From: Candidatus Gastranaerophilales bacterium
Lineage (GTDB): Bacteria > Cyanobacteriota > Vampirovibrionia > Gastranaerophilales > Gastranaerophilaceae
NCBI GenBank assembly: GCA_944323115.1
Contig: CALURG010000079.1
Location: forward strand, 62,001-126,000
Reading direction: 5' to 3'
DNA: 64,000 bases
In this document: positions 10,264-40,400 of the stretch, one piece after another
Layout: every line of letters starts with the position of its first letter
How positions within the stretch are numbered: position 1 is the first letter of the stretch
The notes under the pieces: model-generated
What the model was told of the DNA's origin: nothing
What the model saw: only the letters and a program-made list of their open reading frames with translations
Databases searched by the model: none
Made by a program: the position numbers and the translations under genes

Positions 10264-11634
10264 ATGAATATAATAATAATGCTTTTGTTGATAAGTTTTT
10301 TGATACTTGTTCATGAACTGGGACATTTTCTGTCGGCAAGGGCACTGGGGATAAAAGTAGACAAATTCGGATTTGGTCTGCCTTTTGGGCCTACACTTTT
10401 CAAAGGAAAAATAAAAGATACGGAAATACTTGTGCATGCACTGCTTTTGGGCGGTTATGTTGCATTTCCTGATGATGACACAGATACGGCAAAGGAGAAA
10501 AATCCTCAGGATTTGTTTAAAAATAAACCGATTTGGAAAAGAACAATAGTAGTATCGGCCGGTGTTATTGCCAATGTGATTTGTGCATTGCTGCTTGTCA
10601 TATTTACAGCCTCAGTGTGGCACAAACTTCCCGCCGGAAAATATGACATAACCGTTGCAAAAATTACGGCACCAAAAAGTGCTTCGGTACATTTTTCCGG
10701 ATTAAAACCCGGTGACAAAATATACAAAATCAACGGTTCGGAAATATTCCAACCTTTCCAAATAAACAAATTTGCACAAGAGAGCAAAACCCATGACGGT
10801 TTGACTACTCCTGAAATTTACAGTGACAGGCTGTCTTTGCTGCAAAAGGAAAATGCCGGCATAAAAGATGTGCAAAAAAATATTGAAAAAGGCAAAAAAA
10901 TTGTTTTGATTCCCGTGAAAGATGAAGAACCGGTAAAACTTTCCAAAGCCGCTTTGATGGGAATTGAAAAGGTAAAACAGGATTCTTTAAAACTCAATAA
11001 AAAACAAATTGCACTGCGGGACAAAATTCAAGGAAAAAAAGAGTTTGTTTCTGACGGTGAAACTTCTCTTTCTGACATTGCGGTAGCTTTGTCAGACACA
11101 AGAAAGCCTATATATTTTACCGTACTAAGAGACAAAAAGCCTTTTGATTTGAAACCGATATACTCCGACAATAAAGGTATAATCGGTATTCAGCAGAATT
11201 TGAACGAAGTTTTGCTCAGTGCAAAAACACCTTCAGAAATTTTAAAATCATCTTTTGAATACACATACAGAATTACTGATTTGACTATACTCGGCCTGGA
11301 GAAATTGTTCACGGGGCAAATACCTATGAAAGAGCTTCACGGTATAGTTGCAATTACAAAAGTCGGAGGAGATATGATACAGCAATCCGGGTTGTTCAAC
11401 GGACTGCTTCTTACTGCAATTATCAGTATAAACCTTGCTGTTATGAATCTTTTGCCGATACCAGCGTTGGACGGCGGACATCTTTTGTTTTTGCTTGCCG
11501 AAAAAATAAAAGGAAAACCGCTGGATGAAGAGCTTATTGCAAAAATAAGCAATTTCTTCTTCCTGCTTTTGATTGTCCTTATGCTATTAATTGTTTTTAA
11601 CGATATATTTGCATTAATTACCAAAAAAATATAA
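10264..11634 (+). CDS. rseP: RIP metalloprotease RseP (site-2 protease)
   Basis: A 456-residue membrane protease. Zinc ligands H17 and H21 with catalytic E18 form HELGH in the first membrane helix, and NLLPIPALDGGH is the C-terminal active-site motif with the third ligand. A PDZ-type domain with an inserted charged segment (about residues 140-290) lies between. It cuts membrane-embedded substrates, typically anti-sigma factors or signal peptides; the large anti-sigma-like protein at 29.7 kb is a conceivable client, which is inference only. It is divergent from comF. Confidence 0.93.
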   Translation: MNIIIMLLLISFLILVHELGHFLSARALGIKVDKFGFGLPFGPTLFKGKIKDTEILVHALLLGGYVAFPDDDTDTAKEKNPQDLFKNKPIWKRTIVVSAGVIANVICALLLVIFTASVWHKLPAGKYDITVAKITAPKSASVHFSGLKPGDKIYKINGSEIFQPFQINKFAQESKTHDGLTTPEIYSDRLSLLQKENAGIKDVQKNIEKGKKIVLIPVKDEEPVKLSKAALMGIEKVKQDSLKLNKKQIALRDKIQGKKEFVSDGETSLSDIAVALSDTRKPIYFTVLRDKKPFDLKPIYSDNKGIIGIQQNLNEVLLSAKTPSEILKSSFEYTYRITDLTILGLEKLFTGQIPMKELHGIVAITKVGGDMIQQSGLFNGLLLTAIISINLAVMNLLPIPALDGGHLLFLLAEKIKGKPLDEELIAKISNFFFLLLIVLMLLIVFNDIFALITKKI

Positions 11635-11699: not shown

Positions 11700-12509
11700 A
11701 TGGAACACATCACTTATCTTCAAGACAACTTAAAAGACGGCCGTATTGTCAGATGGCCGGAAAGCTGTTTTCCTCTGAAGTTTTATATAGCACCTTTCAG
11801 ATGGTATGCAAAAACCGGAAATGACAGTTATAAATATCAGGCACTTGTAAAAAGAGCTCTTCAGCAATGGGAAAAAATCGGCGGCGGCAAAGTCAGGTTT
11901 AAAATTGTAAATACACTGAATGAATCTCAAGTAAATCTTGATTGGAAACGTGTAGACAGAAAAGCATTGGGTCACTGCTATTTTCACTTTGACAACAACA
12001 GCCGGCTGTATAGTGCCGAAGTTCAGATAGGGCTTTCTGACGGTATACTTCATCAGCAGTATCAGGACGAAAATGAAGTGTATCATACAATTCTGCATGA
12101 AATCGGACATTCACTCGGTCTTGGGCACAGCCCTTACGAGTCGGATATCATGTACACTCCCCACAAATACGGAGTAGTCAGTCTTTCTCACAGGGACGCT
12201 TCTTCAATACAATGGCTATACAAGCTTCCTCTCGGTATCAGTGTCAAAGAATTCGGACAAAAATACGGTATAAACTCAAACAACATTGACGATATTATTT
12301 TAAAAATTGCAACCGAAAAGCTCAGAAATAATGAATTTGAGGAAGTGAAAAATTCCATAAAAATTCCTCAAAAAGACCTTATGAATGAGCAGGATAAACT
12401 TGCCGAAATGAAAAAATATAATCTCGGTTTGCAGGATATAAAAATTTCAAGCAATGTTCAAGAATATATCAAAAAGAATTTGATAATCAAGAAACCGTCA
12501 AAAGATTGA
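11700..12509 (+). CDS. Matrixin-like (M10) zinc metalloprotease
   Basis: A 269-residue protein with the metzincin signature H133-E-I-G-H137-S-L-G-L-G-H143 and a Met-turn at IMY (M151), exactly as in matrixins. The catalytic domain spans about residues 20-175, with a helical C-terminal tail. No signal peptide or propeptide is visible: residue 1 is followed at once by the folded domain, so it may be cytosolic, exported by another route, or have an upstream start I could not identify. It lies 65 bases after rseP and may be co-transcribed. Substrate unknown. Confidence 0.8.
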   Translation: MEHITYLQDNLKDGRIVRWPESCFPLKFYIAPFRWYAKTGNDSYKYQALVKRALQQWEKIGGGKVRFKIVNTLNESQVNLDWKRVDRKALGHCYFHFDNNSRLYSAEVQIGLSDGILHQQYQDENEVYHTILHEIGHSLGLGHSPYESDIMYTPHKYGVVSLSHRDASSIQWLYKLPLGISVKEFGQKYGINSNNIDDIILKIATEKLRNNEFEEVKNSIKIPQKDLMNEQDKLAEMKKYNLGLQDIKISSNVQEYIKKNLIIKKPSKD

Positions 12510-29042: not shown

Positions 29043-29426
29043 CTAGGCAGCAGGTTTTTTGGAGAACAAGTTTCTAACCCAGACGGCTGCTTTGTTCCAA
29101 TATTTTGTTGCAAAATCACCAACTGTTGCTACCGCTTTTTTACCGTAGAAAGCTGCTTTTTCCGTAAATTTTGAGCCTGAAGGCAGTTTTGATGTTACAT
29201 CAAAGTTTTTGAACATATCAACTTTGCCTCTCAATGCAGCTGCACCGCCCAAAACTACTGCTGCTGCGATTAATGTTTTCAAAAACCAGCGGCTTTTCTT
29301 TTTAGGCTGATAATAAGCTGTATCCATAGGACTGCTTGCTGCCGGTTGTTGAGTTGTTGTGTAAGCCGGCTTTCTTGAAATAGTTGACGGATTCATCGGG
29401 GTAATAGTTGAGAAATTTACTGACAT
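29043..29426 (-). CDS. Small single-pass membrane protein with lineage-style N-terminus
   Basis: A 127-residue protein. Residues 1-50 are Ser/Thr/Pro-rich and disordered in appearance (MSVNFSTITPMNPSTISRKP), then a Lys/Arg run and one membrane helix (FLKTLIAAAVVLGGAAAL), then an amphipathic basic tail ending NLFSKKPAA. I set the start at ATG 29426 because AAGGAG lies eight bases upstream. Its layout matches the proteins at 27164 and 46695. It ends in a strong terminator. Confidence 0.65.
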   Translation of the reverse strand: MSVNFSTITPMNPSTISRKPAYTTTQQPAASSPMDTAYYQPKKKSRWFLKTLIAAAVVLGGAAALRGKVDMFKNFDVTSKLPSGSKFTEKAAFYGKKAVATVGDFATKYWNKAAVWVRNLFSKKPAA

Positions 29427-29713
29427 AATAACACTCCTTTTTATAACACTTCTGTAGACATAAAAAACATGAGAAAACAAATTATTGATAAAATTAAAAA
29501 TTTTGAATTAAATTTGAAACATTTTGTTACATTATACCATGTTTTTTACGATTTTGGAATATTTTTTCACCAACTGTAGTCTGTATAAACAGAGTGTTTA
29601 AAAAAACCTGCAATAAGGAATGCTCTGTTGTTAATCCAGCTACCTGCACAAGTATAAAACTACCGGCAGCAAAAGTGACACCGAACCGGACAGGAATTAA
29701 AGAGGATAAAATA

Positions 29714-32518
29714 ATGATTGATACTATGGAAATAAGCAAAAAAATAATAGAAAGATCAAAAATTGTAGCATCAAAAATAGATGATATTTCAATAAGAAAA
29801 AGAGTATATGCACTGAATTTGGCTGCAAATGTTGCTGCGGATTATATTACGGATCACGGACTTCAAACAGATACAAATTTGAGTCTGTTTCGTATACCGT
29901 CTTTTGCAAAAAATATGGAGCTGGCCGATATATACATTAACGGTTTGAGACTTGATGTAAGGTTGAGTTTTGACGGGGAAACTTTTTGTATTCCGAAAAC
30001 TCATGAAAAATATGACGCAAAGCCTTATGCATACGTGGTAGTTCAAATTGAAAAAGGTTTGCAAAATGCAAATATTCTGGGTTTTGTTCCGGCATCGGAA
30101 TTGGAAGAAGTAAAGTCAAATACGGAGTATTTGGGCTACAGCACATCCATTTTGAAACCGATGACTGATTTAAGGGTTTTTCTTTCTACAATCGAGTTCA
30201 AACAGCCCGTATATTCCGCTTCTGAACATGAAAAAATAAAAGAACTTTGTGCTGCGTTTGCGGATGATGAAATTTCAGAAAGTGAAAAAGTTTATTTCAT
30301 AAAGCACGTAATAGCTTGTCCTGTATGTCGTGAGACATTCTGTGACACAAATGATTTTGACATAGTTTCTTCTCATGTGAAACATTACAATGAACTTTTA
30401 AATGACAGCACTCTCAGTGTTTTATCAGGAAACAGAAAAGAAATTGATGAAGCTTCTCTTGCAAGTATGGGTGTTGTTGAAAATGCACAAGAAATCAACA
30501 ACGAAAGTGAAGAAGATTCTATAATCCTGCCTATGGGTGCACCAAAACTTGAAGAAACACAATCCGAAACAAATGTTGTTGAAGACAATACTGAAGAAAC
30601 ACAAGATTTTGACAGTGAAACAAAACAAGAGGAGCAAAACACGGAAGAAAATACCGAAAAGCAAGAAGAACAAGACAAAGATAATGATGAAGATATAAAT
30701 AATATAGAGGAAAATTTTGCAATAGAAGATTTGGAAGAATCGCTTTCACCGGAATTGTTTGAAGATGATTCTGTTCAAAACAATGAAGAACAGCTTGAAG
30801 AATTGCAAGAGCCCGTACTTTCCGAAACATACGAGGATGTGCAAGATGAGCCGGCTGAACAAGATGAACTTTCGCAAGATGTGCTCTCTGTTACAAATAC
30901 AGAAGATGAACCCGAACTTTTAGAAATAGAAAATGATTCAGATACAACGGTCCTGGATGAATTTGACCTTGATACTATTGAACAAGCCGGAGATTTGGAA
31001 AATTTTGAAGAACTTTCAGAAACAAAAGAAGAAACTGAAACAAATATACAAGAAAATGAAATTTCTGAAATCCCTTCACTTGACGAAGAGCCGCTTGCAG
31101 AAATATCCGGACTTGATGAAATTTCCGATATTGAAGAGGCAGACAACCTTCAAGAATTTGATGAATTGAAGGAGTTTGATATACAAGAAGATACAGACGA
31201 ATTACAACCGGATTTTGCCGGCGAGAAGACGGAAGAATCACAGCAAATTGCATCTGTTGATGAAAAAATAAATCAAGAAAACGATTCTGAGTTTAATGAA
31301 AATTTACAAGAAGAAACAACGAACGAAGATTTTACTGATGTTATACCGGAAGAAGTTGTTTCAAAAGCACAAGAGCCGGTAGAACTTGTTTACGATGATG
31401 ACGATGATGATAAAGACGAATATGAAAATGCCGGCACCGTTGAAAACAATGAAATCCTTGCTGAACAAGGTGAAAACAAAGAGCAAGAAGAACATCAAGA
31501 AGTCTTTGATTCTGTAAATGATGTTCAACATGAAAAAACGGAAGAAACCGAGAAAGATATTTCTTTCGAAACAGAATCATTTGAAGATGATTTACACACA
31601 GACAATGAAGAAATGATAGAGCAGTCTGAAACAAAAACAGAGGCACAAGAACCCGAAAACGACTCTGATATCCAGCAGCTTTTGGATGATGATTTGCTTG
31701 CATTGCTTTCAGATGACAGCAATCAGGATTCTGAAGAAGAAAATAGTACAGATTCAAATATTGAAAACCCGTCGGAACACGTAGAAGAACCGTCATTTGA
31801 AGACGATATTTCAAATGAAAATCAGCAGGGAGATGAAACAATAGAATCTCTTTACAGCGATACAAATATTCCGGAAGCACAAGGAAATGACCCGGCACAA
31901 TTTGAACTGGCACAAGAACCTGTATCTGCAAAAACGGTAAGTGCTACGAAAAAAATAGTTGCGGCAGCAGCTCTGTTTTTGATTCTTGCAGGCGGCAGTG
32001 CGATTTCATGGTATTTCAATCATGCAAAAACTGTTCAGGACAATTCTTTGCTTGATACAGGCAACTCTGACGGAGAATTTTTCGATACTCAAAAAAATGC
32101 AAATAACGAAGAAGCTCCCGCAGTTTCTCAAGATATAAACAAATCGATGACAAATTCATTCTCTGACAAGCCTGCTGCCATTACGATTACAAAACTTTCT
32201 TGGCAGGTAAGCGAAAAACTTGCAGCAAACTCTTCTGTTAAGGAATATTTACAAACTGCGGGTAAAAATATTCAGATGAATTTACAAAATGACCTTGCGA
32301 ATTCAGCTGACATAAACTTCAACAATATAATAAAAGTATCTTTTGAAATTGCTCCGGACAATACAATGAAAGGTATGCAAGTCTTGGAATCCAGCGGTTC
32401 CGACCAGGTTGACGAAATAGTATTAAGAAGTATTAAAAACACTTTAAAATACATAAGTGTGCCTAAGATTAAAGACTTTAAATCCGATTACTTCTTAACT
32501 TTAATAATAAATTTTTAA
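29714..32518 (+). CDS. Giant anti-sigma-like transmembrane protein (DUF1822-like, zinc finger, acidic linker, TonB-like C-terminus)
   Basis: A 934-residue protein. Residues about 5-140 look like the cyanobacterial DUF1822 domain, including a YVVVQIEKGLQNANILGF segment. Residues about 178-210 match the zinc-binding anti-sigma finger: ADDEISESEKVYFIKHVIACPVC, with H198, C202 and C205 in the H-x3-C-x2-C pattern. A roughly 500-residue Glu/Asp-rich linker follows, then one membrane helix near 746-768 (VAAAALFLILAGGSAISWYF) and a C-terminal domain of about 110 residues that resembles the TonB C-terminal fold. Start: ATG 29714 after GAGG; a GTG at 29594 is in frame but unsupported. The next gene is a sigma factor. 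Confidence 0.7.
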   Translation: MIDTMEISKKIIERSKIVASKIDDISIRKRVYALNLAANVAADYITDHGLQTDTNLSLFRIPSFAKNMELADIYINGLRLDVRLSFDGETFCIPKTHEKYDAKPYAYVVVQIEKGLQNANILGFVPASELEEVKSNTEYLGYSTSILKPMTDLRVFLSTIEFKQPVYSASEHEKIKELCAAFADDEISESEKVYFIKHVIACPVCRETFCDTNDFDIVSSHVKHYNELLNDSTLSVLSGNRKEIDEASLASMGVVENAQEINNESEEDSIILPMGAPKLEETQSETNVVEDNTEETQDFDSETKQEEQNTEENTEKQEEQDKDNDEDINNIEENFAIEDLEESLSPELFEDDSVQNNEEQLEELQEPVLSETYEDVQDEPAEQDELSQDVLSVTNTEDEPELLEIENDSDTTVLDEFDLDTIEQAGDLENFEELSETKEETETNIQENEISEIPSLDEEPLAEISGLDEISDIEEADNLQEFDELKEFDIQEDTDELQPDFAGEKTEESQQIASVDEKINQENDSEFNENLQEETTNEDFTDVIPEEVVSKAQEPVELVYDDDDDDKDEYENAGTVENNEILAEQGENKEQEEHQEVFDSVNDVQHEKTEETEKDISFETESFEDDLHTDNEEMIEQSETKTEAQEPENDSDIQQLLDDDLLALLSDDSNQDSEEENSTDSNIENPSEHVEEPSFEDDISNENQQGDETIESLYSDTNIPEAQGNDPAQFELAQEPVSAKTVSATKKIVAAAALFLILAGGSAISWYFNHAKTVQDNSLLDTGNSDGEFFDTQKNANNEEAPAVSQDINKSMTNSFSDKPAAITITKLSWQVSEKLAANSSVKEYLQTAGKNIQMNLQNDLANSADINFNNIIKVSFEIAPDNTMKGMQVLESSGSDQVDEIVLRSIKNTLKYISVPKIKDFKSDYFLTLIINF

Positions 32519-32580
32519 TTCTGTGATATTATATAGTAAAATGTTTAGTAATTTTTAAATATCAAAATTGGGTTGCAGAA

Positions 32581-33156
32581 TTGAATACACTACAAGAACA
32601 ACGGGATTTTATAGAACAACTGGTAAAAACAAATAACAAATTCTTTGGAAACGAAGATCTTTTTGAAGATTTTTGTTCTGAGACTTACAAACGTTCACAC
32701 ACTCTTCTTGAAAGTATGAACGTGAATGCGATAGAAGCATATCTTGCAAAGGTCGCAAATACTGCTATCTTGACGGTGTTGAAAGAAAACGGCAGAGTCA
32801 GAAGAAGAGAAAACAAATATATCAGCACAAAAGAGGTTCTTGTCAGCCCTATACCGGCTAAAGAAACAGAACAGACAAACGATTTTGTCGATGCTTCTTG
32901 TGTATATGACATTGAAGACCCGAGAGATTCTTTTGAAGAAAAAATTGTTCGAAAAGATCTTTTGCAAAAAATAGTTGATATTGTGCTTGTTTCACAAAAA
33001 AATGATCCTTCAAAAGAGTTTCTGAAACTGTTTTATCTTAGATATGTAAAAGAACTTAAGCAAAAAGATATTGCAAAAGAAATAAATATTTCACAATCGG
33101 AAGTAAGCAAGAGACTTGTTGAACTTGCACAGATTGTAAAAACTCATTTTGTCTAA
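32581..33156 (+). CDS. Sigma-70 family RNA polymerase sigma factor, divergent
   Basis: A 191-residue protein with a C-terminal region-4 helix-turn-helix (LKQKDIAKEINISQSEVSKRL) after a LFYLRYVKE segment and a helical N-terminal half that fits region 2. The TTG at 32581 is the only start I can suggest; no ribosome binding site precedes it, so coupling to the upstream gene is possible. The 62-base gap to the giant anti-sigma-like gene suggests one transcript. It would control its own small regulon. Family: small group of alternative sigma factors, neither FliA nor clear ECF. Confidence 0.7.
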   Translation: MNTLQEQRDFIEQLVKTNNKFFGNEDLFEDFCSETYKRSHTLLESMNVNAIEAYLAKVANTAILTVLKENGRVRRRENKYISTKEVLVSPIPAKETEQTNDFVDASCVYDIEDPRDSFEEKIVRKDLLQKIVDIVLVSQKNDPSKEFLKLFYLRYVKELKQKDIAKEINISQSEVSKRLVELAQIVKTHFV

Positions 33157-39302: not shown

Positions 39303-40400
39303 ATGGGTGATGAAGACAAGCAGTTTGAGGCATCACACCAAAAACTGGAAAAAGCAAGAAAAGAAGGCCAGGTTGTAAAGTCAAAGGACTTTTCAACAGC
39401 GATTGCAATGATTGTTATGTTTTTTGCAATTGCCAAACTTGCTCCTTTTATATTTGACCAGATATCGAGACTTTTTGTGTTGTGCTATGAACAAATTCCA
39501 AACCAGCATCTTCAAAACATTGGTATGCCGTATTTGTTGTTTATTACTCTTGTTCCGACAATACTTATTATTGCTCCGATTCTTTTTCTTGCAATGTTTA
39601 TTGCAATAATAGGTGATTTTATTCAAGTCGGCCCGCTTTTTACAACAACGCCGCTTGCCCCAAAACTTGATAAACTCAATCCAAGCAAATATTTTAAAAA
39701 TATAATGTCTATAAAGACTCTTTTTGAACTTTTCAAAAACATTTTAAAAGTAATAGTTCTGGGCTGGGTCGGATGGTCTGTATACAGCTCTCACTTTGAA
39801 GTAATTCTCGGGCTTGCGGCAATGGACAACAATTTTGCGGTTATGCAGGAGTTCGGTTCATTGATTATGGACTTTGTAATCAAAGCCAGTATTGCTTTTT
39901 TGATAATCTCAGCCGCTGATTACGGAATGACAAGATGGAAGTTTTTGCAAGACCAAAAAATGTCTTTTAAAGAAGTTAAAGATGAATACAAAAACACTGA
40001 AGGCGACCCGAATGTCAAAGCAGCATTGAGACAACGCCGCCAGCAAATGATGCAGCAAGGCATGATGGATGCCGTGCCGGATGCCGACTTTGTTGTAACA
40101 AACCCGACACATATAGCTTGTGCTTTGAAATATGACCAGGAAGAAATGGAGTCCCCTACACTTGTTGCAAAAGGTACGGAGCTGTTTGCAAAAAAAATCA
40201 TAGAAATTGCAAGAGAACACGGTGTCCCTGTTATAGAAAATCCTCCCGTTGCAAGAGCACTATTCAGGCTTGTTGACCTAAACAGAGAAATACCCCCTGA
40301 TTTATATAAAGCTGTAGCGGAAATCTTATTATTTGTATATAATTTGAAAAAAACTCAAAAACCTAGTAATATAGAAACTAAGAAAACAGATAAGACGTGA
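39303..40400 (+). CDS. flhB: Type III export apparatus switch protein FlhB
   Basis: A 365-residue protein with four membrane helices in the first 210 residues and a cytosolic C-terminal domain. The autocleavage motif NPTH lies at residues 267-270 in FVVTNPTHIACALKYD. The end REIPPDLYKAVAEILLFVY is also family-typical. It switches substrate specificity in flagellar or non-flagellar type III export. No other export genes except a possible FliO-like one are near. A stop-start overlap couples it to the next sigma factor. Confidence 0.93.
   Translation: MGDEDKQFEASHQKLEKARKEGQVVKSKDFSTAIAMIVMFFAIAKLAPFIFDQISRLFVLCYEQIPNQHLQNIGMPYLLFITLVPTILIIAPILFLAMFIAIIGDFIQVGPLFTTTPLAPKLDKLNPSKYFKNIMSIKTLFELFKNILKVIVLGWVGWSVYSSHFEVILGLAAMDNNFAVMQEFGSLIMDFVIKASIAFLIISAADYGMTRWKFLQDQKMSFKEVKDEYKNTEGDPNVKAALRQRRQQMMQQGMMDAVPDADFVVTNPTHIACALKYDQEEMESPTLVAKGTELFAKKIIEIAREHGVPVIENPPVARALFRLVDLNREIPPDLYKAVAEILLFVYNLKKTQKPSNIETKKTDKT

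Follow-up and report, generated by a model that had tools for sequence, protein, structure and literature searches.

Class I anti-sigma domains (ASD I) are three-helix bundles, those of the zinc type carry an Hx3Cx2C motif across helix 2 and helix 3, a fourth helix after the bundle binds sigma-2, and zinc-free members are common (PMC7406223). A TolA/TonB-like domain in signalling through extracytoplasmic function (ECF) sigma factors has a precedent in VreA of Pseudomonas aeruginosa (PMC2729926). A linkage of DUF1822 to sigma factors has been noted earlier, in a paper that places cyanobacterial DUF1822 and ECF sigma genes beside EACC2/caspase-like immune genes (eLife 2021, PMC8195603). Here we analysed a 64,000-nt stretch (hereafter the window) of Candidatus Gastranaerophilales bacterium (assembly GCA_944323115.1, contig CALURG010000079.1, positions 62,001 to 126,000), in which the gene of a large protein, here called protein A, is directly followed by the gene of a sigma-70 family factor. 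The domain order of A, its linkage to the sigma gene and a conserved ECF-like promoter are observed features of the locus. We read the two proteins, with a probability of about 0.7, as a transmembrane anti-sigma/ECF sigma pair that senses the envelope; inhibition, topology, signal and release are the parts that we infer.

Protein A is composed, from N to C terminus, of a DUF1822 domain, a zinc anti-sigma domain, an acidic linker, a membrane helix and a TolA/TonB-like domain. Several lines of evidence support the anti-sigma domain. The motif H198-x3-C202-x2-C205 is accompanied by a further histidine in helix 1, H171, which recurs in most alignment rows inspected, and H-x3-C-x2-C is present in 59 of the 67 aligned proteins. 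The zf-HC2 profile matches residues 174–206 with 21.3 bits, just under its cut-off of 22.2, and NF052368 scores 13.3 against A (cut-off 50). In the AlphaFold2 model of residues 1–230, with a mean predicted local distance difference test score (pLDDT) of 91.6, helices 169–183, 189–201 and 203–222 form a predicted three-helix bundle with Hx3Cx2C over helix 2 and helix 3, which is the ASD I layout. VIA-align superposed residues 170–229 on RslA with Z 6.0, covering all 56 of the 56 residues of the RslA chain. Additionally, a family profile searched against all PDB sequences gave four weak matches, three of them to anti-sigma factors (RsiW, the best at E 0.014, DdvA and RslA) and in the correct region. 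Similarity to anti-sigma factors, as proposed in the original prediction, was found both by profile and by predicted structure. The segment directly after the bundle, residues 222–246, has a mean column identity of 0.87, the highest of the N-terminal half within the home genus; the preceding parts reach 0.58–0.71, and past residue 262 the value falls to 0.26. Because helix 4 of class I factors sits at this place and binds sigma-2, the segment is read as a putative sigma-2 contact.

The association of A with the sigma factor is nearly invariant across the order. The two genes lie in tandem, A before sigma, with 62 nt between them. The sigma protein consists of sigma-2 and sigma-4 only, has a size of ~190 aa and matches TIGR02937 above the cut-off (51.8 bits; cut-off 42.9), as expected of an ECF sigma factor, and the alignment shows it to be kept throughout Gastranaerophilales; its TTG start is supported because the alignment with ATG-starting relatives fits. 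The relatives found for the sigma factor number 272. In 80 GTDB Gastranaerophilales loci, which were retrieved via the sigma factor, the gene immediately upstream on the same strand was A in all 80, giving the adjacency to an ECF sigma gene that characterizes ASD I, and the gene immediately downstream was a DZR (zinc-ribbon)/AAA/TPR nucleoside triphosphatase (NTPase) in 75. The unit is therefore usually a three-gene operon. In the window, recJ on the opposite strand follows the sigma gene, and the NTPase orthologue is displaced by ~67 kb on the same contig, where no ECF-like promoter was found upstream of it. Among 59 relatives, A-type N-domains were detected in 55 and the sigma factor in 56, and the two were adjacent in most; nearly every member of the order has the unit, in one copy. 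When genomes from the whole class were sampled, the N-terminal profile matched strongly in the home family alone, and its matches in other families were weak or partial. Full-length relatives of A (75 proteins) range from 764 to 1805 aa. These results confirm a sigma-70 family gene directly downstream of A and the co-occurrence of the pair across Gastranaerophilales, which had been proposed as a check; the pair usually belongs to a three-gene operon that includes the NTPase. At one locus (L118:3111-7503), A is broken into frames of 889 and 632 aa that overlap, which may reflect a frameshift or an assembly error. The window genome also encodes a conventional ECF sigma factor of 201 aa and, immediately after it, a zinc anti-sigma factor of 234 aa that scores 51.9 bits with zf-HC2 (L287:1533-2858, contig C15), an ordinary pair that offers a useful control.

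Upstream of A, a conserved ECF-like element, TTTGGAATATTTTTTT-N6-TG-N3-TCT, has its single occurrence in the window at 29553-29581 with 0 mismatches, the chance expectation being 0.02 per window at 3 mismatches allowed. Of 74 loci, 61 have it within 250 nt upstream of A and 8 more have it just beyond this distance or after an over-extended or mis-called start (69/74); shuffled sequence gave 0.025, and among 411 other upstream stretches 3 contained it. With the strict pattern, the operon's own site was recovered once in seven of eight genomes (six or seven by position upstream of A), together with three other matches, and a looser pattern applied to 15 genomes added matches only without the T-tract and TGTAATC. 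The promoter is conserved and nearly unique per genome and therefore implies an autoregulated operon, probably with a narrow regulon, and the sigma factor of the pair presumably reads the GGAATA promoter. A wider regulon was considered and not retained: only the operon's own site was reproducible, and the other recurrent matches were without the T-tract and TGTAATC element, in scans that would miss more divergent targets. A second upstream block, TGAAACATTTTGTTACATTATA (window about 29510-29535), is conserved in the home genus and holds a minus-strand TATAAT in most relatives, perhaps serving the divergent gene as its promoter. Divergent from A, the minus strand encodes a 145-aa protein with one hydrophobic stretch (29043-29480), which Pfam does not match and NCBIfam matches weakly; an open reading frame of 128–151 aa occupies the same place in many relatives.

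The remaining parts of A agree with a membrane-spanning regulator. The run of about 500 Asp/Glu-rich residues described originally was confirmed as the 502 aa between the zinc domain and the membrane helix, with 36% D/E and 3% K/R. In the 75 full-length relatives, the linker has a median length of 474 aa (range 305–1310) and is acidic in all (26–47% D/E); linkers as short as 76 aa also occurred in the first set of relatives. The single membrane helix, originally placed near residues 746–768, was located at about 748–766, and K/R are in excess on its N-side in 61 of the 75 proteins, which by the positive-inside rule argues for an N-in orientation. The TonB-C-like domain beyond it also held up. 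Searched alone, the C-terminal part matches TonB_2 with 22.4 bits (cut-off 22), and the predicted structure of the C-terminal 150 residues, alpha-beta-beta-alpha-beta, aligns with domain III of Escherichia coli TolA (Z 8.6) and with the TonB C-terminal domain of Helicobacter pylori (Z 7.9, Foldseek probability 1.00), so that both fold and profile are those of a TolA/TonB C-terminal domain. TonB-dependent receptors (PF00593) were found in 0 of 13 genomes of the home genus and in 3 of 21 genomes overall. FecIR-type TonB-dependent signalling is rejected for the home genus because no such receptor was found there. A third TonB_2 match in the genome is a 313-aa protein with a zinc-ribbon-like start (L282:1108-2049, contig C48).

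The N-terminal domain is most likely a non-catalytic PD-(D/E)XK-like module that binds protein or DNA and is tied to sigma control. The DUF1822-like domain originally suggested was recovered by Pfam (PF08852) at residues 5–152 with 35.6 bits (gathering cut-off 25), covering only positions 1–149 of the 370 in the profile. VIA compared residues 3–162 of the predicted structure with PD-(D/E)XK nucleases over 104–136 residues of the core; its 20 best rows all belong to this superfamily, with Z 6.2–8.5 (values around 8 can also reflect an arrangement that is common), and comprise Hjc resolvases, SPARDA, Eco15I, NhoI, DpnI and PvuII, and no fold outside the group stood out. Foldseek with residues 1–230 returned no significant fold, and the PD-(D/E)XK claim therefore rests on the coherence of the VIA list. 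D72 is invariant, and D81 and R83 are nearly so; the catalytic D...(D/E)-x-K is replaced by D...D-x-R, with arginine for lysine. A short, ECF-linked group of cyanobacterial DUF1822 proteins retains an aspartate and E-C-R at the motif places, and a long group is without them. An active nuclease is not favoured, since D-x-R stands where the lysine motif would be; a non-catalytic module is proposed because of D81-x-R83 and the loss of the motif in the long cyanobacterial group.

Of 292 Cyanobacteriota genomes sampled over the phylum, 188 contain DUF1822, as against 0 of 14 control genomes. When the 30 best DUF1822 loci of cyanobacteria were inspected, 29 had a neighbouring sigma-like open reading frame, a link that also has profile support. 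In two genomes of another family of the same class, DUF1822-like proteins adjoin a 480-aa protein with HHH_3, which shows weak sigma similarity in one of them. The original prediction had taken the DUF1822-sigma link to be new; these loci and the eLife 2021 paper (PMC8195603) contradict this. In the literature searched, DUF1822 is mentioned in two papers only, and in neither passage does it have an anti-sigma role. No caspase-like gene was seen beside A and sigma, the downstream neighbours being the NTPase (75/80 loci) or, in the window, recJ. Beyond the order, we put forward as a tentative proposal, which may well not hold, that an inactivated PD-(D/E)XK-like DUF1822 is a dedicated sigma partner or regulator across Cyanobacteriota and was joined in Gastranaerophilales with three further parts (zinc anti-sigma domain, acidic tether, TolA/TonB-like sensor) into one protein, giving an order-wide, self-regulated envelope operon with its own NTPase.

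A working model of the anti-sigma/ECF pair can be outlined as follows. In the resting state, sigma would be clamped at the inner membrane by the class I zinc anti-sigma domain (residues about 170–246), which lies in the cytoplasm at the end of the long acidic tether. The TolA/TonB-like domain in the periplasm would respond to an envelope cue, which may be a partner protein, peptidoglycan or the state of the outer membrane, and the cue would release sigma by a shape change or by regulated proteolysis, with a site-1 cut followed by an M50/RseP cut. Free sigma would then transcribe its own operon from GGAATA...TGnnnTC and reset A and sigma, and the same transcription would, in most relatives, also yield the DZR/AAA/TPR NTPase. 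The RseP-type protease encoded from 10264 had been suggested as a possible releaser of sigma: the M50 protease is indeed present (185.7 bits), and no link between it and A was found, which leaves this housekeeping enzyme a plausible candidate by its presence. Directly after its gene, the window encodes a protein with HEIGHSLGLGH, a matrixin-like zinc protease motif (11700-12509, plus strand).

Some points weigh against an anti-sigma/ECF pair. The anti-sigma sequence match lies under the curated cut-offs, the zinc motif is missing in several genera, A and sigma lie on separate contigs or A is undetected in one family (f6), and the A-sigma order is the opposite of the customary sigma-anti-sigma order. 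The position of A ahead of sigma, from which co-expression would follow, also suits a protein that acts mainly as an activator or chaperone of sigma, needed as well as inhibitory in the manner of FecR or VreR, so that loss of A would silence sigma; VreR is both required for VreI function and inhibitory, and the TolA/TonB-like periplasmic domain resides in VreA of the same system (PMC2729926). We consider this unlikely, as the cytoplasmic part of A is of class I (RslA/RsiW-like), whose studied members inhibit, and is not a short FecR-type tail.

Two further explanations were considered. A conflict or stress effector, with DUF1822 as a nuclease or DNA-binding effector, the NTPase as a STAND-like sensor and sigma amplifying expression, would draw together the PD-(D/E)XK-like predicted fold, the AAA_16/TPR NTPase of the operon and the caspase-like immune genes that PMC8195603 reports beside cyanobacterial DUF1822 and ECF sigma genes. 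However, the catalytic lysine is an arginine in A and the motif is gone in a large cyanobacterial group, no caspase-like neighbour was seen at the locus, and a single-copy unit near universal in the order is unlike patchy defence genes, all of which makes an effector quite improbable. The slimmest chance falls to A as chiefly a TolA/TonB-like envelope protein, with sigma co-transcribed by chance and the zinc bundle anchoring something else. Within the home genus, conservation of A is highest in the C-terminal domain, and ExbB-like proteins, its possible partners, were present in 21 of 21 genomes checked; yet in the window genome a separate TonB/TolA-like protein adjoins ExbB and ExbD, the home genus yielded no TonB-dependent receptors, and the linkage of A to sigma is strict (80/80).

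Features of the locus and related genes (window coordinates unless a locus is named; residues are those of protein A)
Feature	Position	Strand	Remarks
Predicted ECF-type promoter, GGAAT-N14-TGtagTC (TTTGGAATATTTTTTCACCAACTGTAGTC)	29555..29580	+	conserved motif
Protein A gene	29714-32518	+	934 aa, predicted transmembrane anti-sigma factor
DUF1822 N-terminal domain, residues 1-164	29714..30205	+	PD-(D/E)XK-like predicted fold
Class I (zinc) anti-sigma domain, residues 171-221	30224..30376	+	H171, H198, C202, C205; zf-HC2
Residues 222-246 (ELLNDSTLSVLSGN)	30377..30451	+	candidate helix 4 contacting sigma-2
Acidic linker, about residues 263-737	30500..31925	+	poorly alignable
Single transmembrane helix, residues 748-766	31955..32011	+	N-in by positive-inside rule
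TolA/TonB-like C-terminal domain, residues about 825-934	32186..32515	+	predicted periplasmic
ECF-size sigma-70 family factor	32581-33156	+	191 aa, TTG start; sigma-2 and sigma-4 only
M50 site-2 protease (RseP type)	10264-11634	+	PF02163 185.7 bits, HELGH motif
DZR/AAA/TPR NTPase	L280:1914-5309 (own genome, contig C79)		1131 aa; orthologue of relatives' third operon gene

Elsewhere in the window, the plus strand encodes an FlhB/YscU-like protein with an NPTH motif (39303-40400). Scanning the window for Rfam families and tRNAs gave no matches.

Gastranaerophilales, gut-dwelling relatives of cyanobacteria, are common and for the most part uncultured. In the literature searched, no paper was found that names sigma or anti-sigma factors along with Gastranaerophilales or Melainabacteria, and the operon described here would provide the order with a core signalling system and a testable promoter. 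For DUF1822, whose name says no more than that its function is unknown, it suggests a concrete role, that of a PD-(D/E)XK-like module linked with sigma factors all over the phylum. It also presents a TolA/TonB-like domain fused directly to a predicted anti-sigma factor.

The system is of a familiar kind, the RslA/RsiW type, and its build with a DUF1822 domain is new. With RslA of Mycobacterium tuberculosis and RsiW of Bacillus subtilis, A shares the Hx3Cx2C three-helix domain before one membrane helix, the adjacent ECF-size sigma gene and an ECF-like promoter on its own operon. It differs from them in the DUF1822 domain ahead of the anti-sigma domain, the acidic tether, which is about 300–1300 aa long, the TolA/TonB-like outer domain, the anti-sigma gene in first position and an NTPase as the third gene. 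The predicted core of DUF1822 aligns with PD-(D/E)XK nucleases such as Hjc resolvases, DpnI, Eco15I/NhoI and SPARDA, whereas A has D-x-R where the nucleases have (D/E)-x-K, and nothing points to catalysis. Cyanobacterial DUF1822 genes likewise stand beside a sigma-like gene, but the proteins (PMC8195603) are stand-alone, about 320–460 aa long and called TPR proteins, have caspase-like, CHASE2 or trypsin proteins as neighbours, and have none of the parts to which DUF1822 is fused in A: the zinc anti-sigma domain, the tether and the TolA/TonB-like domain. The PUMA3 system of P. aeruginosa (VreA-VreI-VreR, PMC2729926) likewise brings together an ECF sigma factor, a sigma regulator in the membrane and, in the periplasm, a TolA/TonB-like domain. 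In contrast to A, whose home genus yielded no TonB-dependent receptors, PUMA3 carries this domain on the separate periplasmic protein VreA together with an STN domain, whereas in A it is fused to the anti-sigma factor itself.

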